In this document: in pieces, positions 7,213 through 36,436 of the stretch
Position numbering within the stretch: position 1 is the stretch's first letter
How the letters are laid out: each line of letters begins with the position of its first letter
Assembly (NCBI GenBank): GCA_025935855.1
Contig: JAICUM010000003.1
Span: forward strand, 1 to 36,706
DNA: 36,706 nt
Reading direction: 5' to 3'
Source of the DNA: Pirellulales bacterium
GTDB taxonomy: Bacteria; Planctomycetota; Planctomycetia; Pirellulales; Lacipirellulaceae
Notes under the pieces: generated by a model
What the model was told of the DNA's origin: nothing
Databases searched by the model: none
The model's input: only the letters and a program-made list of their open reading frames with translations
Program-made: the position numbers and the translations under genes

Positions 7213-7350
7213 GGCAATCTCCTCCACGCCCCATTATACCAAACGGGGGTGGCCAAAAACGCCGCTGGTTATTAGCCGCGCCGCGCGGGATAATAGGCGC
7301 GACCAAGAGCAGAAGCCTCGCGCAAGCGTAGCCGTCTCGCCAAGTGTAGC

Positions 7351-7369
7351 CGTCTCGCTCCGCGAGACG
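7351..7369. repeat. TCC-triloop hairpin (family B)
   Basis: CGTCTCGC-TCC-GCGAGACG, perfect 8-bp stem, preceded by TGTAGC. Confidence 0.75.
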
Positions 7370-7371
7370 GT

Positions 7372-7395
7372 CGCCTCTCGCGCCAGCGAAAGGCG
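7372..7395. repeat. adjacent imperfect hairpin
   Basis: CGCCTCTCGC-GCCA-GCGAAAGGCG, 10-bp stem with one mismatch. Confidence 0.55.
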
Positions 7396-16775: not shown

Positions 16776-19700
16776 TCACTGCTGGCTTAAAGTGGCGGGC
16801 GCTTTCCAATCGAGCGCCGGCCACAGCAGCGTACGACCGTCCCGGCCGCTGGTGAGCGCCGCGCGGCCGTCAGGCGAGAAGCTTACCGAGGTCACCTCCT
16901 CGGCATGTCCGGCCAGCGTAATGATTTCTTTGCCGGTCGCGGCGTCCCACAGCTTCGCGGAATTGTCCTCGCTGCCGGTGATCGCGCGGGCATTGTCAGC
17001 CGATAGGGCGACGCTTGTTAGCGCGGCTGTGTGACCCTTGAGCGTCTGCAAAGCCTTGCCCGTCGCCGCGTCCCACACGATAGCCGTGTTGTCCTCGCTG
17101 CCGGTAATGATCCGCGAGCCGTCGCGTGAAAAAGCGCCCGATCGCACCGCCCATTCATGGCCGGTGAGCGTGAGCAAGACGTTGCCGGTTTTCGCATCCA
17201 CGACGTTCGCCGTCTTGTCGCTCGATACGGTGAGAATCCGCGAGCCGTCCGGCGAGAAGCACGCCTGCAGCACGCCGCCCTTGTGATGCTTCAGCACCGG
17301 CTCGAGCGGAGCGCCGTCCGCCGCGTCGAACAGGCGGGCCGTGCCGTCGTCACTCGCCGTAAGAATCCGCGAGCCGTCCCGCGAATAGCAAACGCTGTTG
17401 ATATAGCCCGAGTGAATGTTGTCGAGCTTCACCAGCACCTTGCCGGTGGCGACGTCCCAGATTTTGGCCGAGCGATCCCAGCTTCCCGTGACGATGCGTT
17501 TTCCGTCGGGCGAAATGTCGGCCGAAGCGACCACGCCGTGCGGGCTGAAGCGCACGGCGAGTTTGCGCGTAACGATGTCGTACAACCGGGCGTCGTTGCC
17601 GCCGATGACCAGCAACCGCTCGCCGACGGGTGCGAAGCGGGCCGCCCACACGATGCCGCCGCGGCCGCCCATGTCGAGCCAGGACTGCGGTTGGCCCTTG
17701 TCGTTCGCGATGGTGATTTCCTGGCCGGCGTCCAAATTCCACAGCTGCACCGTGCCGTCAGCGGCGCACGCCGCTGTGGCGAGCCGGCCGTCGGCGGAGA
17801 GGTCGATTGAGGTGAAGGCGAGGTCTTTTTTGCGTGGCTCGAGCGTTCGCAGCAACCGAGCGTCGGCGAGCGACCACAGCCGCAGTTTGCCGTCGTCGCA
17901 GCAAGTGAGCCCGAGCCGCCCGTCTGCGGACACGGCCAGATCGGCGACATAATCGGGATGCCGCAGTAAACCCGCTGGGATTTCCTGGCCGGTCGCCACG
18001 TCCCACTGACCGCAGGTGTTATCGCCGCTGGCCGTCACAAGCCGCGCCCCGCGATTGATGAAGTGCATCGCCGTGATTGTGCGGCTATGACCCCGCAACA
18101 CCGGGCCGGCGGTCCACTTGTTCGTCGCCGCATCGAGCCGCCACAGCCGGACGAAGCCGCGGTCGCCGCCGCTGGCGAGCAGCGTTCCGCCGGGGCCGAA
18201 ACGCAACGACGTGACCTCGGCTGCATGCCCGGTGAGCGCCGCCACTTTCGCTCCGTTGGCGGCGTCCCAGATCTGCACTTCATTGCCGCCGCCGCCAGTG
18301 GCGATGAGCTTTCCATCGTCCGAAACGTCGAGGGCCGCCGTTCGGCCGGTATTTTCCAGGTGCGAAAGCTCCGTGCCGGCCGCCACATCCCACATCCGCA
18401 CGGTGCCATCGCCGGCGCCCGTGGCCAGCCGCGTGCCATCGGCGAAGAACACCGCGGACGAGGCGAGGAAGTCGTGCCCCTCGTGGAACCACTGCTGGCG
18501 GGCCAGCGTCGCGGCGTCCCATAGCGAGGCCGTGCGATCGTGGCTGGCGGTCACAATTTCCTTACCGTCCCGCGAGAAGCGCGCCGACAGGACAGAGTCA
18601 GGGATCTCATTGTGGTCCACTGCCAGCGCTAGCGTTTCACTATGGCCCGCCGGGTTCCAGAGTTTGATTTGTGCGTCGCGGCCACCCGAGAGGATCCACG
18701 CGCCTTCGGGAGAATAGGCGACGCTGTTGACGTGGCTGGCGTGGCCGCGCAGCTGCCTGAGCTCTTTGCCGCTCGCGACGTCCGACAGGACGACCATGTT
18801 GTCCTGTCCGCCGCTGGCCAGGCTCTTGCCATCCGGAGAGAACGCGATCGTGCGCACCGGGCCGCGATGGCCGGCCAGTGCCGTGAATGGCACGGGCGCC
18901 TCGGGCTCCTTGTCCAGCCGGCGCTCAATATCCACGGGACGCGTTTCTTCCAGGTTCCAGATGAGCACTCGCCCGTCGTACCCCGCTGAGGCGATGTGCA
19001 GGCCGTCGGGCGCGAATTTCGCCGCGTACACCGGCCCGTGGTGTTGCGTGAACTCGGTTTCGTTGACGAACTCCTCGGGCGGCAAGTTCTTCGCCGCCTC
19101 GCGCAGGGCGGCCCCGCGGCTGTTTTTCGCGATCGAGGCGCGGAGCCAAACGATGGCTTTGCCGTCCTGCCCGGCGGTGACGATGCGATTGCCGTCGGGC
19201 GAGAATTCCGCCGACCACACCCACCAGCTATGGCCACGGAGGATTTGGGTCGTCTGGCGCGTGGCAAGGTTCCACAAGCGAGCGGTTTGATCGTAGCCGC
19301 ACGTGACGAGCCACTGGCCATCCGGCGAGAAACGAACGCTTAACACGCCGTCGGTGTGGCCATCGAGCGGCGCCATGAGCGCACCGTCGGCGGTGCGATA
19401 AATGTGAACGCTGCCGTCACTTCCGCCGGCGGCGAGGCGCTCGCCGCGCGGATCGTACCCCACTGAGTACACATACTGAGCTTGCGACAACTCGCGTTCG
19501 GGCTTGCCGGTTTGCAGATTCCAGATCGAAGCCTTGCCGGCGCGATCGCCGATGGCGAAGTGCATGCCGTCCGGTGAAAACGCGACTGCCTCAACCGGCG
19601 CGGCGTTCTTCCAGGACTTATCGGCGAGGTTGCACAGGTAATTCAGCCGGCCCCATTCCCAGTTCCGCAAACTCGGCGGGCACTCGGCCAGCAGCTCCGC

Positions 19701-21752
19701 GGCGCGGTCGAAGGCATTCTCGTCGATCTTGGTTTTGGTCAAGCCAATGCGGGCGATGTACGCGGAGTACTCTTCGGCTTTCTTGGATTCGTTGGCCAGG
19801 TCGCGCTGCTTGGTGGCCTCAACAGTTTGCGCGTCGGCGATGTTTTTCTGCTTCACGGCCTCGACCAGATTGGTCTTCGCCTCGCCTTCAGCCTTGGTGG
19901 CGCGATCCCGTTGCTGCTCAGCAGTATTCTTTTGAGCCAATGCTTCCTGGCGTGCGGTTTCCGCTTCCTTAAAGTTCTTATTCGCCTCTCCCTCGGCCAC
20001 GACCGCGCGATCGCGCTGCACGACGGCCTCGTTGCGTTCCTTGCGCACGGCGGCGAACGCCACCGACACGACGACGATGACGGAAGCCACGAGCGCGGCG
20101 ACGGCTCCTTTCAAGACACGGATGCGACGCTTGCGCGATTCACGCTCGCGGCGGCCGGCCTCGAGCATCGCGAGCAGCTCGCGATGCTCCGCGACCGCGG
20201 AGTCCAGCAGCGACGCCCCCAGATCGAAATCGCCCTTGTCGAGCGCCAGCTTGGCGTATTCAATTCGCGCGGTCGAAAGCAGCGCGGTCGCCCGCGGGTT
20301 CTCCGGCCACAAGGCGAGCGACTCTTCCAGACCATACATCACGCGAGCGTACAGCTCGTAATCCTGCCGCTCCTTCGCCAAGAGCATATTCCGCTGGGCA
20401 TGCTCGACCAGTTGAATGCTCTGCGAATGCGACTGATACTCGCGCACGGCCCGCTGGAAGGCCGGCACGCTTTCGTGCCGATCCTCGGCCTCGGTGGCCA
20501 TCGCCTTCTTGGCAATCTCGAACAGCTCGCCGGAAACGCCTTCGGCCGGCTGAATTTGGTTCTTCGCGGCGGCGAAGAGGCAGGCCATCACCGTCTTGCC
20601 GGAGTGCGGCGGCCTGCCGGCCAGGATTTCATACAGGATGGCGCCGAGCAGGTAGACGTCGCTGGCCTTTGTGATCTTCTCCAGCGGCCCGGTGGCCATC
20701 TCCGGCGCCATGTAGGCCGGCGTGCCGCCCATCGCGTCCGACTGGCTGACGGATGCGGCATTGGGGAATTCGGGGCTCACGCGCGCCAGTCCCCAGTCCA
20801 TTACCAGCACTTCGCCGAAGTCGCCCAGCATGACGTTCTCGGGCTTCAAGTCGCGATGGATCACGCCGTTCACATGGGCGAACGCCACCGCGTCCGCCAC
20901 GCGCAGCAGAATCGTCAGATTGTCGTCCAGCGATTTCTGCTTGAGGACCTTGTTCCACGGCGTCCCTTTGACGCGCTTCATTGAGTAGAAGAGCGCGCCT
21001 TGGTTATCGGCGCCAAGGTCGTAAATCGGGACGATGTTCGGGTGGTCGAGCTCGCCGGTGACCACCGCTTCGGAGATGAACTTGTCGCGCTGGGCCACGT
21101 TTTTGTGGTCGCCGTCCTTGAGCATCTTCAGGGCGACTGTCCGCGCGATCGACGATTGCCGGGCCGCGTACACGACGCCCATGCCGCCTTCGCCGATGAT
21201 GTTCAAGAGCTCGTAGTCCGGCGCGTCGGCGGGCGACGTGCTCGGCGATGTCACGGCTCCGGTCGGCACCACTTGCCGTGACTTGACCACCAGCGAAGAG
21301 CTGGTCATGAAGGAACCGCGGATGGTTTCCTTCTGCTTGATCGTCGCTCGCGAGTCCGTCGCCGCGGATCCCGCGATATTCCCCTCCCAGTGCGAGGTGA
21401 GCATGCTTTCGTCGATTTCCTTGCTTCCGCCGAGGAACTCGATCGTTTGCTCGGCGCTGAAATCGACCGTCAGCGGCTGAATCGATGGACCGTCGAACGA
21501 CGACCGGCTTTGGCTCAGCTCCAGCGAGGCGAGCGTCTCCTGATCGACCGAGTGGCCCGCGGTGTCTCCGGCGGGGAGTTCGATCGTAACTTCGTTCGGC
21601 GGATACTCCTCGATCGTGTTGGCCGTCGGGAAGCGAACGTCCGCGATCGTGCGCTGGGGAAGCTGCCGCCATACGGCCCCGCACGAGGGGCAGCGGGCCG
21701 CTGTGCGAGAGGCTTCGTCAAGCTCGTGTTGGCAACTAGGACAAGCAGCCAT
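16776..21752 (-). CDS. transmembrane Ser/Thr protein kinase with zinc-ribbon-like N-terminus and C-terminal WD40 propellers
   Basis: CPSCQHEL..CPSCGAVW; GEGGMGVVYAARQ, VALKML, HRDLKPENVMLGDFGEVLVMDWGLA; TM GAVAALVASVIVVVSVAFAAV; about 21 WD40-type units. Confidence 0.93.
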   Translation of the reverse strand: MAACPSCQHELDEASRTAARCPSCGAVWRQLPQRTIADVRFPTANTIEEYPPNEVTIELPAGDTAGHSVDQETLASLELSQSRSSFDGPSIQPLTVDFSAEQTIEFLGGSKEIDESMLTSHWEGNIAGSAATDSRATIKQKETIRGSFMTSSSLVVKSRQVVPTGAVTSPSTSPADAPDYELLNIIGEGGMGVVYAARQSSIARTVALKMLKDGDHKNVAQRDKFISEAVVTGELDHPNIVPIYDLGADNQGALFYSMKRVKGTPWNKVLKQKSLDDNLTILLRVADAVAFAHVNGVIHRDLKPENVMLGDFGEVLVMDWGLARVSPEFPNAASVSQSDAMGGTPAYMAPEMATGPLEKITKASDVYLLGAILYEILAGRPPHSGKTVMACLFAAAKNQIQPAEGVSGELFEIAKKAMATEAEDRHESVPAFQRAVREYQSHSQSIQLVEHAQRNMLLAKERQDYELYARVMYGLEESLALWPENPRATALLSTARIEYAKLALDKGDFDLGASLLDSAVAEHRELLAMLEAGRRERESRKRRIRVLKGAVAALVASVIVVVSVAFAAVRKERNEAVVQRDRAVVAEGEANKNFKEAETARQEALAQKNTAEQQRDRATKAEGEAKTNLVEAVKQKNIADAQTVEATKQRDLANESKKAEEYSAYIARIGLTKTKIDENAFDRAAELLAECPPSLRNWEWGRLNYLCNLADKSWKNAAPVEAVAFSPDGMHFAIGDRAGKASIWNLQTGKPERELSQAQYVYSVGYDPRGERLAAGGSDGSVHIYRTADGALMAPLDGHTDGVLSVRFSPDGQWLVTCGYDQTARLWNLATRQTTQILRGHSWWVWSAEFSPDGNRIVTAGQDGKAIVWLRASIAKNSRGAALREAAKNLPPEEFVNETEFTQHHGPVYAAKFAPDGLHIASAGYDGRVLIWNLEETRPVDIERRLDKEPEAPVPFTALAGHRGPVRTIAFSPDGKSLASGGQDNMVVLSDVASGKELRQLRGHASHVNSVAYSPEGAWILSGGRDAQIKLWNPAGHSETLALAVDHNEIPDSVLSARFSRDGKEIVTASHDRTASLWDAATLARQQWFHEGHDFLASSAVFFADGTRLATGAGDGTVRMWDVAAGTELSHLENTGRTAALDVSDDGKLIATGGGGNEVQIWDAANGAKVAALTGHAAEVTSLRFGPGGTLLASGGDRGFVRLWRLDAATNKWTAGPVLRGHSRTITAMHFINRGARLVTASGDNTCGQWDVATGQEIPAGLLRHPDYVADLAVSADGRLGLTCCDDGKLRLWSLADARLLRTLEPRKKDLAFTSIDLSADGRLATAACAADGTVQLWNLDAGQEITIANDKGQPQSWLDMGGRGGIVWAARFAPVGERLLVIGGNDARLYDIVTRKLAVRFSPHGVVASADISPDGKRIVTGSWDRSAKIWDVATGKVLVKLDNIHSGYINSVCYSRDGSRILTASDDGTARLFDAADGAPLEPVLKHHKGGVLQACFSPDGSRILTVSSDKTANVVDAKTGNVLLTLTGHEWAVRSGAFSRDGSRIITGSEDNTAIVWDAATGKALQTLKGHTAALTSVALSADNARAITGSEDNSAKLWDAATGKEIITLAGHAEEVTSVSFSPDGRAALTSGRDGRTLLWPALDWKAPATLSQQ

Positions 21753-21844
21753 GAAAGTTTCGCATCAGTGCGAGCAGCGGGGCAAGGATTCTATTGTAAT
21801 CGAGACAAGCAGCGCTCGCCGCCACGCGGTCCGGGATGCGGCAT

Positions 21845-24800
21845 TTACCGAGGTTTCTTGCGAGAACGCCCTCGCGCCGCCCGCAGCCGCTTCCACTGGC
21901 TCGGCTTGGCCGCGGCCAGCGTCTTGTCGAGCTGCCGTTGCCAATCGCGGCCGGCGCCGGATAGCGCCAGCGCCGCGCCGGCCAGCGCCGCGCGGTGATA
22001 AATCGTGCTGGACGAGCGCATCCGGGGCGACCCCTGGATCGCGTCATCGACGGAATTGGTTCCACTTACGGCGTCAATCGCAGACGTGGCGGCCGGAACC
22101 GGCTCATTGATCGGCGAAATCGGTTGGATATTTTTTGCGGCGGCCTTGTTCGCGCCGGCATCGTTTGGATTCGCGTCGGTCGGCGGCTTCAGCTCCGCGG
22201 CCGGCTTCGCATCTTCCGTCGGCGGCTTGTCGCGGCCGCCTTCGCTGTCGTCGCCCGGGTCGACCAACTTGCCGTTGCGAACAACCACCTCGATCACCAG
22301 CCGGCTTTTGTTATTCTCAGGCTGCACGAGGTAAATCGCATAATGGTTGTCCGGCAGATTGCGGAACAGCCCCGGCAAGTTTTTCATCACCTCGGGCCGC
22401 AGGCGATAGCCCTCGCTCATCGTGCCGTCGGGATTGATGACCCGCAGCTCGAAGTACCGCTCGCCGGCGGCTTGCGATTCGCCCGCCGAGCCGCGCACAT
22501 CATTCGGCGCCAGGGTCGCGAGGCGCGTGTCTTGCGTCGTCAGCACTGGCGGCGAGGCGGGCCGCTCAGGGAACGTCAGCACCGCGACCGCCGGCGTCAA
22601 ATCAATGCGGATGAACTGGTTACCGATGCCCGGGTTCTTCAGATCGCGATCGACCGGATTGCTCTGGCCCGATTCATCGGGCGGCGCGACCACGGTTTGC
22701 GGCTGCGGAAAGTCGTCGTCATGAATGCGAACGACGATGGGAATGGTCGCCGATGGGTGAAGCGGATCAGGAGCCTCGGTATAGGTGTGCGTGGCCGTGA
22801 ACATGTGCAGACCGGATGTTGCCGCCGCCGGCGTCACGGTGAACGTTTCCTCGTGCGGCCCTTTGTTGTCGCCCCAATCGACAAACAGCTTGTACGTGTC
22901 GCGGCCGGGATCGGTAAACGTGCCGGTGATCGTCGTTTGGCCCTTGGTGTTCACGTCGGTGGCGAAGAACGTAGCGTCGCTCAGCGTTGGGCTGACGTTC
23001 TTCACATCGACGCTCAGCGTTTTCACGGTGACGCCGCCGTCGTCGTCGCGGATGGTGATGGTGACTGTGTAAACGCCGTTATCGACATAGGTGTGCTGGG
23101 CGTCGAACGAGCCGGCTGTGAGTACGCCCGGGCTGCCGAAGACATCGGTTGTCGGCACGCCGTTCTGCTCGACCGGATCGTCGCCCGGCTGGAACCGCGG
23201 CTGGTCGCCCCAGTTGATCGTGTAAGTAAACGTTTCCTGGGTCTGGCCGCCGTTCGTGACGTTCCCCGCGTTGAGCGGATTGTCGAAGCCGGGGTCGGTG
23301 AACTGCGAGATGTTCAGCACCACCAACTGGCTGCCTTCATGAATCGTCTGGTCGGCCGCCACTTGAACGGTCGGCGCCACGTTGTTCACCGTGATCGTCA
23401 ACGTGCGGGAATCGACTGGACCATCGTCGTCCGAGAGCTTCACCGTGACGGTGTAGACGCCGTTGTCCGCATAGGTATGCGGCGCGTGGTCGAAGTCGGC
23501 GGTGGTCGGCACGCCAGGCGAGCCGCTGACACGATTGACGGTGGTCACCGGCGTGAGGGCCGTGCCGTCGCCCCAGTCGATCGTGACGCCCGCGAAGGTT
23601 TCCTCGAACTCGCCGCCGTTGGACGCGTTGCCGGCGTTCAGCGGATTGTCGAACCCCGGATCCTCAATCCGCACGCCAAGCCCCGCGAGGGTGAACGCCT
23701 GGCCTTCGTCCCGCACCAGTCCTGACGTGCCTGTGAGCGTCGGATCGACGTTCAGCACCGTCACGGTGAACGTCTGCTGGTGCTGCCCGCCATCGTCGTC
23801 GAACACCGTCACCGCGACGGTGTACGTGCCGTTGTCGGCGTAGGTGTGCGAGCCGTCGAACGACCCGGCGGTCAGGACGCCAACGCTGCCATGCACATCG
23901 ATCGTGGCATCGCCGGTGTTCGCCGCCGTGCCGTCGCCCCAATCGGTGCTGAAGGTAAACGTCTCGACGGTCTCGCCGCCGTTGGACGCGTTGCCGGCGT
24001 TGAGCGGGTTGTCAAAGCCTGGATCGGTAAACGTCCCAATGTTCGTGAGCGAGAGCAGGCTGCCTTCGTCAATCGTCTGGCTGCCGACAACCGAAAGCGC
24101 CGGACTGACGTTCAAGACGTTGACCGTAAACGTCGTCTGATCCTGCCCGCCGTCGTCGTCAAAAACCGTGACGGTGACGGTGTAATTGCCGTTATCGGCG
24201 TAAGTGTGGGAGCCGTCGAACGAACCGGCGGTGAGCGTCCCCGGGCTGCCGTGTACGTCAATCGTCCCATTGCCGGAATCAGTCGCCGTTCCGTCGCCCC
24301 AATTCACGGTGAACGTAAACGTCTCGACCGTTTCGCCGCCGTTCGCCGCGTTGCCGGCGTTCAGTGGATTGTCGAACCCGGGATCGGTGAACGAACCGAT
24401 GTTCGTCAGCGTGAGCAAACTACCTTCATTGATGGTCTGATTGACCGGGGCCGACAGCAAAGGCGCGACATTCAGCACCGATACTTGAAACGTCTTCGCG
24501 TCGCTGCCGCCATCATCGTCGAAGACCTTGACAGTTACGGTATACGTGCCGTTGTCAGCATAAGTGTGCGAGCCGTCGAACGAGCCCGCCGTCAGCACAC
24601 CCGGACTTCCAATCACGTCAACGGTTGCATTGCCGGCGTCAGTGCTCGTACCGTCTCCCCAGTTGACCGTGAAAGTGAACGTCTCCACCGTTTCGCCGCC
24701 GTTGTTTGGATCGAGCGTGTTCAGCGGATTGTCGAAGCCCGGATCGGTAAACGTCCCAATGTTGGTCAGCGATAGCAGCGATCCTTCGTTGATCGTCTGA

Positions 24801-27250
24801 TTACTGACGACCGCAAGCGTCGGACTGACGTTCAACACCGCCACTTGGAACGATTTCTGGTCCTGCCCGCCGTCATCGTCGAACACGGTCACAGTGATGG
24901 TGTAATTGCCGTTGTCGGCAAAGGTGTGTGATCCGTCGAACGACCCGGCCGTCAACACGCCGGCACTTCCCGCGATGTCCACGGTCGCATTTCCAGCGCT
25001 CATGGCCGTGCCATCACCCCAGTTGATCGAGTAGGTGAAGGACTCCACCGTTTCCCCGCCATTGGAGACGTTCCCGGCGTTGAGCGGATTATCGAAGCCC
25101 GGATCGGTAAACGTCCCGATATTCGTCAGCGATAGCAGCGAGCCTTCGTTGACCGTCTGATTGCCGACCACCGTCAACGACGGGCTGACATTCGTAACCG
25201 TCACGCTCGCCGAGCCGAGACCGACGCCGGAGTCGTCGTCCGTCACCGCAACCTGCACGGCGTACGTGCCGTTGTCGGCATACGTGTGGCTGGCGGAGAA
25301 GGAATGCCCTGCCGCCGCCCCCACGGTCACCGCCGTGCCGTCGCCCCAGTTGACTTGGTAGGTGTGCGTGTCCAGTGTGCCCGGATCGTCAAACGTGAAC
25401 GCCAGCGACACCAGGTTTCCTTCAGCCACCGTCGGCGAACTGGGCGTCACTTGCACGTTGAATGGCGCGACGTTGTTCACCGTGATTGGGGCGCTGGCGA
25501 TCCCGATGCCGCCGTCATCGTCCAAGACGCGCACCTTCACCATGTACACGTCCGACGGCGTGCCGGTCGGATTGTCATCGAGATACTGATGGTTGGCTGT
25601 GAATGTCCGCGCTCCCGCGGCCACGGGTAGCGTCTGCAGGGCAGAGCCGTCGCCCCAATCCACCTCGACCATGTGCGTGTCGAGCGTCCCCGGATCGGTG
25701 AACGAAAGATTCAGCATCGCGACGCCGTTCTCATCGACGGGCGAAAGCGGCGTAATCACAATCGCCGACGGCGGCACGTTGCTCACCGTAACCGACGTCA
25801 TCGCCGTACCTTCGCCGGTGTCGTCGTCGATGACGCTCACCTTGATCGTGTAATTGTCCGACGAAGTGCCCGTCGGGTTGTCGTCCAAATACTGGTGGCT
25901 CGCAGCGAGCGTCCGGGCTCCCGCCGCGACGGGCAGCGTCTCCACGGCCGAACCGTCGCCCCAGTCCACCTGCACGGTGTGCGTGTCGAGCGTGCCGGGA
26001 TCGGTGAACGACAAGTTCATCATCGCCACGCCGTTCTCGTCGATCGGCGTGACGGGATCGAGCTGAATCCCCGACGGCGCCACGTTGTTCACGGTGATCG
26101 ACTGCGCGCCGCTCACCTGCCCGCCATCGTCGTCCGCCACCGTCACCTTCACGGTATACATGTCCGACGGCGTGGCCGTGGGATTGTCGTCCAAATACTG
26201 GTGCGTCGTGCCGAACAGCCGCGCGCCCTGCGACAGGTTGAACGACTCGACCGAGCCGTCGCCCCAATCCACTTGGACCGTGTGCGTGTCGAGCGATCCC
26301 GGATCGTCGAACGAGAGGTTTAGCTGAGCAAGGCCGTTCTCGTTGATCGTTCCCAGCGCGCCGATTTGTAGATTCGACGGCGCCACATTGTTCACCAGCG
26401 CCGGCACGGTGGCGCTCGCTTCGCCGCCGTCGTCATCCAGCACGCGGACCTTGACCGAGTAAATGTCGAACGTCGTTCCGCTCGGATTGTCATCCAGGAA
26501 TTGGTGCGTCGTGCCGAAGAACCGCGCGCCCTGCGAGACATTGAACAGCTCAGTCGAGCCATCGCCCCAGTTCACCTCGACCTGGTGCGTGTCGATCGTG
26601 CCCGGATCGTCGAACGTTAGCTCGAGCGACGCCACGCCGTTTTCATTTACCGGCAGAATTGGCGCGATCTGCAGATTCGACGGCGCCACGTTGTTCACCG
26701 TGATCGGCGTGGAGGACGACGCGGACCCGCCCTGCGAGTCGGTCACCGTGGCCTTGACGATGTACGTGTCAGCCGGCGTGACGCTCGGGTTGTCGTCCAG
26801 ATACTGGTGCGTGGTGCCAAAGAACTGCGATCCGGCCGGCACATTGAACAGTTCGGTCGACCCGTCGCCCCAATCCACCTCGACGGTGTGCGAGTCCAGT
26901 GGGTCAGGATCGTCGAACGTTAGCTCCAGCGAGGTAATGTCGTTTTCGGGAATCGCCTGCAAGGGCGCGATCTGCACGTTCGACGGCGGCGTGTTTGACG
27001 AGCCGGTGGGGACGATGATTAGCGGTTCGGCCCGGTCCGTCTCACCCTGCGGGGTCGAATCCTTGCTGGTCTGCACGTAGTCGTGCTGCGTCGCGGCGAG
27101 GTCGAGGGTCAGCGCCGGAGCCGCGGCATCGAGCATGCGGCGGGGTTCCAGCCGTCGAGCCACCAGCTCCAGCCGCGTGGCGGCGGCAGCATCGGGCCGG
27201 CGGCTAAACAGCTCGGACAATCGTCGGCGTCGGCGCGGTCGGGCAGCCAT
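21845..27250 (-). CDS. giant PKD-repeat extracellular/surface protein with LEPR-type N-terminal motif
   Basis: 1801 aa; N-terminal LVARRLEPRRMLDA; about 13 PKD-like units with VxWGDG..HxYxDNGxYTVxVxVxDDDGG; hydrophobic stretch and basic C-terminus. Confidence 0.9.
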   Translation of the reverse strand: MAARPRRRRRLSELFSRRPDAAAATRLELVARRLEPRRMLDAAAPALTLDLAATQHDYVQTSKDSTPQGETDRAEPLIIVPTGSSNTPPSNVQIAPLQAIPENDITSLELTFDDPDPLDSHTVEVDWGDGSTELFNVPAGSQFFGTTHQYLDDNPSVTPADTYIVKATVTDSQGGSASSSTPITVNNVAPSNLQIAPILPVNENGVASLELTFDDPGTIDTHQVEVNWGDGSTELFNVSQGARFFGTTHQFLDDNPSGTTFDIYSVKVRVLDDDGGEASATVPALVNNVAPSNLQIGALGTINENGLAQLNLSFDDPGSLDTHTVQVDWGDGSVESFNLSQGARLFGTTHQYLDDNPTATPSDMYTVKVTVADDDGGQVSGAQSITVNNVAPSGIQLDPVTPIDENGVAMMNLSFTDPGTLDTHTVQVDWGDGSAVETLPVAAGARTLAASHQYLDDNPTGTSSDNYTIKVSVIDDDTGEGTAMTSVTVSNVPPSAIVITPLSPVDENGVAMLNLSFTDPGTLDTHMVEVDWGDGSALQTLPVAAGARTFTANHQYLDDNPTGTPSDVYMVKVRVLDDDGGIGIASAPITVNNVAPFNVQVTPSSPTVAEGNLVSLAFTFDDPGTLDTHTYQVNWGDGTAVTVGAAAGHSFSASHTYADNGTYAVQVAVTDDDSGVGLGSASVTVTNVSPSLTVVGNQTVNEGSLLSLTNIGTFTDPGFDNPLNAGNVSNGGETVESFTYSINWGDGTAMSAGNATVDIAGSAGVLTAGSFDGSHTFADNGNYTITVTVFDDDGGQDQKSFQVAVLNVSPTLAVVSNQTINEGSLLSLTNIGTFTDPGFDNPLNTLDPNNGGETVETFTFTVNWGDGTSTDAGNATVDVIGSPGVLTAGSFDGSHTYADNGTYTVTVKVFDDDGGSDAKTFQVSVLNVAPLLSAPVNQTINEGSLLTLTNIGSFTDPGFDNPLNAGNAANGGETVETFTFTVNWGDGTATDSGNGTIDVHGSPGTLTAGSFDGSHTYADNGNYTVTVTVFDDDGGQDQTTFTVNVLNVSPALSVVGSQTIDEGSLLSLTNIGTFTDPGFDNPLNAGNASNGGETVETFTFSTDWGDGTAANTGDATIDVHGSVGVLTAGSFDGSHTYADNGTYTVAVTVFDDDGGQHQQTFTVTVLNVDPTLTGTSGLVRDEGQAFTLAGLGVRIEDPGFDNPLNAGNASNGGEFEETFAGVTIDWGDGTALTPVTTVNRVSGSPGVPTTADFDHAPHTYADNGVYTVTVKLSDDDGPVDSRTLTITVNNVAPTVQVAADQTIHEGSQLVVLNISQFTDPGFDNPLNAGNVTNGGQTQETFTYTINWGDQPRFQPGDDPVEQNGVPTTDVFGSPGVLTAGSFDAQHTYVDNGVYTVTITIRDDDGGVTVKTLSVDVKNVSPTLSDATFFATDVNTKGQTTITGTFTDPGRDTYKLFVDWGDNKGPHEETFTVTPAAATSGLHMFTATHTYTEAPDPLHPSATIPIVVRIHDDDFPQPQTVVAPPDESGQSNPVDRDLKNPGIGNQFIRIDLTPAVAVLTFPERPASPPVLTTQDTRLATLAPNDVRGSAGESQAAGERYFELRVINPDGTMSEGYRLRPEVMKNLPGLFRNLPDNHYAIYLVQPENNKSRLVIEVVVRNGKLVDPGDDSEGGRDKPPTEDAKPAAELKPPTDANPNDAGANKAAAKNIQPISPINEPVPAATSAIDAVSGTNSVDDAIQGSPRMRSSSTIYHRAALAGAALALSGAGRDWQRQLDKTLAAAKPSQWKRLRAARGRSRKKPR
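23600..25190. repeat. about 360-bp-period tandem repeat within the PKD gene
   Basis: Blocks such as GCGGATTGTCGAAGCCCGGATCGGTAAACGTCCCAAT recur near 24001, 24361, 24721 and 25081. Confidence 0.85.
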
Positions 27251-28419: not shown

Positions 28420-28612
28420 CCATCCCGGTAGGGATGCCCTGAGAATTGCCCAGCGTTTCAACGCTGGGTTTAAAGGCAGGTGTATTCTGTAGTAGTCCCG
28501 GTAGGGACGATTGAGGTTTCAGTCGTCCCTACTGGGACTATTGATGGTACTTGTGCCTCAATACCCAGCGTTGAAACGCTGGGCTATTCTCACTTTGCCC
28601 CGATGGGGCAAT
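28420..28612. repeat. symmetric cluster of hairpin repeats
   Basis: CATCCCGGTAGGGATG; TGAGAATTGCCCAGCGTTTCAACGCTGGGT (28440-28469); AGTCCCGGTAGGGACGA; TCGTCCCTACTGGGACT; ACCCAGCGTTGAAACGCTGGGCTATTCTCA (28563-28592); TTGCCCCGATGGGGCAA. Confidence 0.85.
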
Positions 28613-33965: not shown

Positions 33966-34165
33966 AAGCTCAGTATAGGCATCGCGCCGCGGAACTTACC
34001 CGCATTCGGCGCACACTTCGCGGGTCAAAACTTGCGAGCGATGGCATGCCGGCGCCATCCGCGCTGATGAGTCAAATCGGGCAAACTTTCTCTGTTGTAA
34101 CGAATTTAATGATTCTGACGGCCGTGCCGTGACGAAAACCAGTTCGAGGCTGCATGTTCTGCTAC

Positions 34166-34222
34166 CTGTAGTCGAGTCTCTCCGAGACTCGAATCGCCGG
34201 TTTCTCCGAAACCGGCCTACAG
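34166..34222. repeat. double TCC-triloop hairpin in the leader of the TolC-like gene (family B)
   Basis: CTGTAG-T-[CGAGTCTC TCC GAGACTCG]-aatcg-[CCGGTTTC TCC GAAACCGG]-c-CTACAG; both stems are perfect 8 bp and are enclosed by CTGTAG/CTACAG. Confidence 0.85.
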
Positions 34223-34246: not shown

Positions 34247-36436
34247 ATGGCTTTTTTCCGACAACGGTCGCTCGTGTGGTCGCTCCTCGCCTGCCTAATG
34301 CTGGCGGAGGGGTGCCGGCTGCGCGACGAGAACGCGTTCAAAACGTGCGGCGACGAGTGCTACCGGGCGATGGCGTCGCAGATTGAGTATCCGGCCGTCT
34401 CGCAGTGTTCGGCGACGGACGCCGACTGGGCGTCGGCCGAGCCGGTGACGCTCACCTCGCCAACTGACATCAAGTACCGCGACATGACGCTGCAGGAAGC
34501 GGTGCAGATCGCGCTGACGCAGTCGAAAGTCATCCGCGACCTGGGCGGCAGCGTGCTCCGCTCGCCGGCGCAGGTCGAAACGTTCTGGGATCCGGCGGCG
34601 GTCGAGACTGATCCGCGGTTCGGCATCGACGCCGCGCTCAGTGCGTTCGACGCCCAGCTCTCGGCCAGCGCGTACGGCGCCAAGAACGACCGGGCGATCA
34701 ACAACGAGTTCTTCGGCGGCGGCACGCGGCTGTTGCAGCAGGACACGGCAACCGTGCAGGAGCAGTTATCGAAGAAGGCCGCCACGGGTTCGCAATTCGC
34801 TTTGCGGCATTACACGAACTACGACGCGAACAACGCGCCGAGCAACCTGTTCCCAAGCGCATGGACCACGTGGTTTGAGACCGAGGCCCGCCAGCCGTTG
34901 CTGCAGGGCGCCGGCACGACGTTCAACCGCATCGCCGGTTCGAGCAACATTCCGGGCTTGTACACCGGCGTACTGGTGGCCCGCGTGAACACCGACGTCG
35001 AGCTCACCGAGTTCGAAATGGCGGTGCGCGACCTGGTGAGCAACGTCGAGAACGCCTACTGGGACCTGTACTTCGGCTACCGCGACTTGGACGCGCGGAT
35101 CGCCGCCCGCGACGCGGCGCTCGATACGTGGCGGCGAATTCACGCGTTGTACGTGGCCAATCGCCGCGGCGGCGAAGCCGAGAAAGAAGCTCAGGCCCGC
35201 GAGCAGTATTACCGGTTCCAGGAAGACGTGCAGAACGCGCTTTCGGGGCGGCTGTTCCAAGGCACGAGCGTGAACAATGGTTCCAGCGGCGGCACGTTCC
35301 GGGCGATGGGCGGCGTGCAGGTGAGCGAACGCCGGCTGCGGATGCTGATCGGCCTGCCGCCAAGCGACGGCGCGCTCATCCGCCCGGCCGACGAACCGGT
35401 CACGGCGCCGATTCATTTCGATTGGCAGGAGATCAGCCGCGAGTCGCTGGTTCGCCGGGCGGAGCTGCGCCGGCAACGGTTCATGACGCGGCGGTATGAG
35501 CTGGAGCAGATCGCCGCGAAGAACTACTTGCTGCCGCGGTTGGATGCGGTGGGCTTGTACCGTTGGCGAGGCTTTGGCGACGACCTTTTGCACAGCGACA
35601 GCGCAGGCCGGGCGGAATTTGACAACGCGTACATGAACCTCACCAGCGGAAACTTCCAGGAATGGCAGATCGGCATGGAGCTGAACATGCCGCTGGGCTT
35701 CCGCCAAGGCTCGGCCGCAGTGAAGAACGCCGAGCTGCAACTGTGCCGGGCTCGGGCGATTCTGCGCGAGTCGGAACACCAGGTGCTGCACGACGCGGCG
35801 AACTCGGTCGGCGAGTTCGATCGCGCGATCGTCGTGGCGCAGACAACCGCTCATCGGCTGGATGCGGCGCGGGCTCAGCTGGCGGCGGTGCAGGCGGCGT
35901 TCGAGGCGGACAAGGCGCCGCTCGATTTGCTCTTGGAAGCCCAGCGGCGATTGGCCGACGCGGAAATTCGGCATTACCAGTCGCTGTCTGAATACGCGCT
36001 GGCAATCAAGAACGTGCATTACGCCAAGGGTACGCTCTTGGAATACGATGGCGTGGTGCTGAACGAGTCCCAGTGGCCGGCGAAGGCGTACGCCGATGCG
36101 GCGGAGCGGGAATCGCTGCGGTTCAAGCCGCGGCCGCTGAACTACGTTTCGTCGCGGGCCCCGCGGACGGCTGATGGGCCATACGATCAGCACTCGATGG
36201 TGCATGAGCTTGGACCGACGGCTTCGGCGGATTCGCAGCAAGGCGAGCCGACTCAGCCGCAGCAGCCCAACTCGGTGCAGCCGGCGCCGAGCGCCAACCC
36301 GAGCGAGCCAATCTCAACACCTCCGGCTGCACCGACGGCGCCGATCATTCCCACGTCGAATTCGACGCCGTTGTCGGCAAAGCCTGAGAACGCGCGGGAT
36401 CTGGCGGCAGCGCTGCAAGCGGCGGCAGAGCAGTAG
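34247..36436 (+). CDS. TolC-family outer-membrane efflux protein, predicted lipoprotein
   Basis: Lipobox-like LLACLMLAEGC; YRDMTLQEAVQIALTQSKVIRDLG; VENAYWDLYFGYRDLDARIAARDAALDTW; long coiled-coil repeat ADKAPLDLLLEAQRRLADAEIRHYQSLSEYALAIKNVHYAKGTLLEY. Confidence 0.88.
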   Translation: MAFFRQRSLVWSLLACLMLAEGCRLRDENAFKTCGDECYRAMASQIEYPAVSQCSATDADWASAEPVTLTSPTDIKYRDMTLQEAVQIALTQSKVIRDLGGSVLRSPAQVETFWDPAAVETDPRFGIDAALSAFDAQLSASAYGAKNDRAINNEFFGGGTRLLQQDTATVQEQLSKKAATGSQFALRHYTNYDANNAPSNLFPSAWTTWFETEARQPLLQGAGTTFNRIAGSSNIPGLYTGVLVARVNTDVELTEFEMAVRDLVSNVENAYWDLYFGYRDLDARIAARDAALDTWRRIHALYVANRRGGEAEKEAQAREQYYRFQEDVQNALSGRLFQGTSVNNGSSGGTFRAMGGVQVSERRLRMLIGLPPSDGALIRPADEPVTAPIHFDWQEISRESLVRRAELRRQRFMTRRYELEQIAAKNYLLPRLDAVGLYRWRGFGDDLLHSDSAGRAEFDNAYMNLTSGNFQEWQIGMELNMPLGFRQGSAAVKNAELQLCRARAILRESEHQVLHDAANSVGEFDRAIVVAQTTAHRLDAARAQLAAVQAAFEADKAPLDLLLEAQRRLADAEIRHYQSLSEYALAIKNVHYAKGTLLEYDGVVLNESQWPAKAYADAAERESLRFKPRPLNYVSSRAPRTADGPYDQHSMVHELGPTASADSQQGEPTQPQQPNSVQPAPSANPSEPISTPPAAPTAPIIPTSNSTPLSAKPENARDLAAALQAAAEQ

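Follow-up and report, generated by a model that had tools for sequence, protein, structure and literature searches.

The pair of hairpins ahead of a TolC-like gene in the window (the whole stretch of 36,706 nucleotides of Pirellulales DNA analysed here) is very probably one copy of a non-autonomous GTAG REP doublet, or REPIN, belonging to a family that we call B, spread by a RAYT transposase and tolerated in the leader of that gene. The odd hairpins of this genome are explained in this way as ordinary GTAG REP doublets. What is new is a further set of such doublets, linked to RAYT genes, in the Pirellulales; the class itself is published. GTAG REPs are known in Rhodopirellula baltica, which has several families side by side, and in other PVC bacteria (Di Nocera et al. 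2013, PMC3733652). The doublet of inverted REPs is established as a repeated unit, the REPIN (Bertels and Rainey 2011, PMC3116915), and rayt genes occur with inverted REPs of the same family on either side (Nunvar et al. 2010, PMC2817692). Heterodimers, including a preference for them, and intragenic copies of GTAG REPs have also been published already. The initial annotation of this DNA had not recognised the class, and took the flipped loop of one hairpin as part of its rule.

Architecture of the window copy

The three hairpins singled out in that annotation, two in the leader of the TolC-like gene and one near 7.35 kb, all exist where it placed them (Table 1), with stems of 9 bp instead of 8. 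The leader pair is indeed closed by CTGTAG and CTACAG, and 24 nt separate its end from the start codon of the TolC-like gene. In each of the three hairpins a GTAG tag lies directly 5′ of the palindrome, on the hairpin's own strand. Whether taken as DNA or RNA, and on either strand, the doublet is predicted to fold into a two-hairpin junction, that is, two hairpins on a closing helix.

Table 1. Coordinates of the repeat elements in the window and of the adjoining gene
Feature	Position	Strand	Sequence or remark
REP doublet (REPIN), family B	34166..34222	.	head-to-head heterodimer, closed by CTGTAG/CTACAG
Enclosing CTGTAG	34166..34171
Enclosing CTACAG	34217..34222
Doublet span, GTAG to CTAC	34168..34220		53 bp
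First REP of doublet	34168..34192	+	GTAG + TCGAGTCTC-TCC-GAGACTCGA; canonical loop
First hairpin without tag	34172..34192		TCGAGTCTC-TCC-GAGACTCGA; stem 9 bp
Second REP of doublet	34196..34220	-	minus-strand reading GTAG + GCCGGTTTC-GGA-GAAACCGGC; loop inverted relative to other family B copies
Second hairpin, plus-strand reading	34196..34216		GCCGGTTTC-TCC-GAAACCGGC; stem 9 bp
REP, family A	7346..7370	+	GTAG + CCGTCTCGC-TCC-GCGAGACGG; CCAAGT just before, as in other family A copies
7.35-kb hairpin without tag	7350..7370		CCGTCTCGC-TCC-GCGAGACGG; stem 9 bp
Probable decayed partner of family A REP	7371..7391	-	tcgCCTCTCGC-gcc-aGCGAAAGG; read by eye, missed by the GTAG hairpin scan
Outer membrane efflux protein, TolC-like (PF02321)	34247..36436	+	downstream context, outside the element

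The TCC triloop, formerly held to be invariant, is present in the first hairpin and in that at 7.35 kb; the second hairpin departs from it, reading GGA from its own minus-strand GTAG. The doublet at C682 has both stems identical to those of the window pair (CGAGTCTC and CCGGTTTC) in the canonical form: where the second hairpin of the window pair reads TCC, the matching strand at C682 has GGA. Since, furthermore, a genome-wide search for family B hairpins with a flipped loop returned the window copy as sole match, we take the plus-strand TCC of the second hairpin to be a loop inversion. In Stenotrophomonas, reverse-complementing the loop severely affects cleavage by TnpA(REP) and largely compromises its binding (PMC8266576), and by this analogy the second (GGA) end of the window doublet may be inactive.

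Copies, families and stem pairing

Comparison with shuffled DNA, a check proposed in the initial annotation, revealed an excess over chance. A sample of 448,829 bp from this genome contains 17 perfect hairpins abutting GTAG (stem of at least 8 bp, 3-nt loop), where its shuffles average 0.1, and TCC or GGA loops among the hairpins of this sample number 13, against 0.5. The sample was made of contigs taken by number, blind to their content, and ten dinucleotide-preserving shuffles served as control. The motif does recur elsewhere in the genome: family B (GTAG-N-CNNGTYTC-TCC; search pattern GTAGNCNNGTYTCTCCGARACNNG) has 47 copies genome-wide, and family A (GTAG-N-CNTCTCGC-TCC; search pattern GTAGNCNTCTCGCTCCGCGAGANG) has 63, the reversed-pattern control giving 0 in both cases. 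The stems are therefore not unrelated and freely varying, as had been thought, but recurring variants of two sister families, the 34-kb pair falling into B (CNNGTYTC) and the 7.35-kb hairpin into A (CNTCTCGC), with the TCC loop common to both. The pattern GTAG-N9-TCCG proved too loose (295 matches, 167 in its control), and the family patterns were used in its place. A loose search of the window for further partial copies, allowing 3 mismatches, gave 13 matches for 10.5 by chance, which is no excess.

Intact head-to-head doublets of 50-54 bp are found 15 times for family A and 9 times for family B in the genome. Identical stems occur in none of the 15 family A doublets, for 4.9 expected (P ~0.003), in a test where the pairs were copied by hand and where two of the 15, at C220 and C244, seem to be one sequence; for family B the count is 0 of 9, for 1.5 expected, which is not significant. 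Several GTAG hairpin families were catalogued in the genome (~0.75 Mb scanned), and 71 of the 73 members of families A-F are extragenic, the coding share of the sequence being 82% according to a simple codon-usage caller that left the RAYT frame at C670 uncalled. A further family of GTAG hairpins has a 5-nt loop, TGCCG, and stems GTCCCTTC or GTCCCGCT (L050 796-942, L127 4882-4970).

Across the copies of families A and B the stems stay paired, and GTAG and the TCC loop are fixed. Family B was collected from other genomes in 139 distinct contexts, and its three variable stem positions form Watson-Crick pairs in 137, 131 and 137 of them, where independence of the two stem sides would give 80.7, 50.8 and 82.0; because related genomes are not independent samples, these figures are descriptive and carry no P value. 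The records concerned are mostly titled planctomycetes or plain 'bacterium', and one, Candidatus Hatepunaea, comes from another phylum. This covariation supports the earlier proposal of selection on structure around a fixed loop. TnpA(REP) is known to read GTAG and the pairing, to which group 3 enzymes add the loop (PMC8266576), and with such recognition a fixed loop together with a tolerant stem is what would be expected.

RAYT genes and related genomes

An association with a transposase, also put forward initially as something to look for, is present. At C670, in the same genome, a RAYT-like gene is flanked on each side by family A doublets and holds one more within its reading frame. Its product scores 60 bits (E 1.9e-16) against NF047646, under the model cut-off of 80, and 24.8 bits against PF01797, above the cut-off of 23, with the PNHVH and YIxxNP motifs visible. 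The frame (L034 1441-2211, minus strand) stays open across the complete family A doublet, which adds ~20 residues. The activity of this gene is uncertain because of the doublet inside it. The inserted stretch is missing from two aligned orthologues (G035 and G040), and the orthologue of G069 has, in the same region, a single REP of that genome's own family. The orthologue at C116 of G035, another genome of the order, is 50% identical to that at C670 and has family B REPs on either side, while those of G069 (C5) and G040 (C1) are bracketed by GTAG...TCC hairpins with stems CAACTCTC and GGCAYGG, respectively. No RAYT gene with family B REPs on either side was found in the genome of the window, whose assembly is 82% complete.

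The genome has five matches to PF01797, and only around C670 do REPs of families A or B occur. Other transposase genes keep other company. An IS200-type Y1 transposase gene at C133 (L033 1249-1870) lies between inverted GTAG-CCTGGGGC-AAC hairpins and adjoins a moaA-like radical-SAM gene. The strong RAYT at C71 (L171 1126-2113; 192 bits) has GTAG-GGCATGC-ACC hairpins on both sides, which form another REP family of this genome. At C463 (L035 240-1130), the repeats around a strong RAYT (NF047646, 191 bits) are of the GATGGGTT type and not GTAG hairpins. The RAYT at C275, in a second scan of the genome, has no GTAG hairpins alongside.

Two relatives of the same genus (G120 and G121) have the orthologous TolC-like gene, with the position of its ATG (34247) conserved and an alignable leader that contains no REP, although the leaders have diverged so far that the junction cannot be placed. 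To be sure, the lack of the element in these relatives, taken by itself, could in principle be due to loss. The short sequence TGACGAAAA (34131-34139) is kept upstream of the gene in both, possibly as part of a promoter or operator.

Spread of the doublets and other readings

A doublet exposed as single strand, for instance on the lagging-strand template, would fold into the two-hairpin junction, and the RAYT, an HUH Y1 single-strand transposase, would read the GTAG tag, the pairing of the stem and the TCC loop, then cut beside the element, so that copies would spread among intergenic sites. As the stem would require pairing more than any one fixed sequence, it could drift by compensatory change, GTAG and TCC being kept. 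The copy in the leader of the TolC-like gene would most likely be a tolerated insertion. Mobilisation by a RAYT, a single-strand mechanism and neutrality at the window site are what we infer. We would add only tentatively, as something rather unlikely in its entirety, that a clade of Pirellulales RAYTs keeps a code made of GTAG and the TCC loop, that stems turn over between genomes, and that the window copy has one end disabled by the GGA inversion.

The position of the doublet so close to the ATG might suggest a cis-regulatory RNA, the fold of the leader controlling translation or stability of the TolC-like message, and the 111-nt leader RNA does fold far better than its shuffles (z -4.3). 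This is highly improbable, however, for an element that has dozens of further copies across the genome and is lacking from the leaders of the same gene in two relatives of the genus. Where a terminator or leader regulator should be a gene-specific structure conserved with its gene, we find a genome-wide repeat absent from same-genus leaders. The doublet might still have a secondary influence on expression here. Another role can be imagined, since REPs of E. coli have been proposed to act as terminators or to bind chromosome proteins: the hairpins would then be intrinsic terminators or sites for host chromosome proteins, kept for their function and not mobile DNA. Extragenic location and conserved structure fit that role as well. 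Yet the patchy spread (family B in 5 and family A in 8 of 118 genomes of the order) and the RAYT genes bracketed by the same hairpins better fit a mobile repeat, and the doublet of the window is found ahead of a start codon where two genes diverge, and not at a gene end. This role, too, is highly improbable. As for hairpins arising by chance in G+C-rich DNA, nothing speaks for them except the 63% G+C of the window; the excess over shuffles and the empty reversed-pattern controls leave them a negligible likelihood.

The mobile doublet resembles the published GTAG REPs (PMC3733652) in its GTAG tag, stem of 6-9 bp, short loop, head-to-head doublets, heterodimers, extragenic location, several families per genome and some intragenic copies, a likeness drawn from architecture and not from a published stem or loop consensus; it differs in the spacing of partners, 3-5 bp here and usually 20-100 there. 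With REPINs and their RAYTs (PMC3116915, PMC2817692) it shares the inverted-REP doublet as unit and the rayt gene set between inverted REPs of its own family. The host phylum here, in contrast, is Planctomycetota, a doublet sits in frame within the genome's own RAYT gene, and for family B no RAYT was found in this genome. In the group 3 TnpA(REP)/REP pairs of Stenotrophomonas and Marinomonas (PMC8266576), a perfect stem, a specific short loop and GTAG are the recognition determinants, which would account for a fixed loop with a tolerant stem here, but the loops are GCT and TTTA instead of TCC. We found no biochemistry of a planctomycete RAYT enzyme in the literature. Orthologous Pirellulales RAYTs that sit beside REPs with GTAG and the TCC loop in common and with different stems constitute a natural test series for RAYT recognition. 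As a matter of caution, such a structure should not be read as an RNA that regulates the efflux gene.

Elsewhere in the window, a CCCAGCGT hairpin occurs twice in inverted orientation (28449-28583), with a third palindrome (28501-28532) enclosed, between converging genes, and two adjacent, very long reading frames, of 1658 and 1801 aa, occupy the minus strand at 16776-27250.
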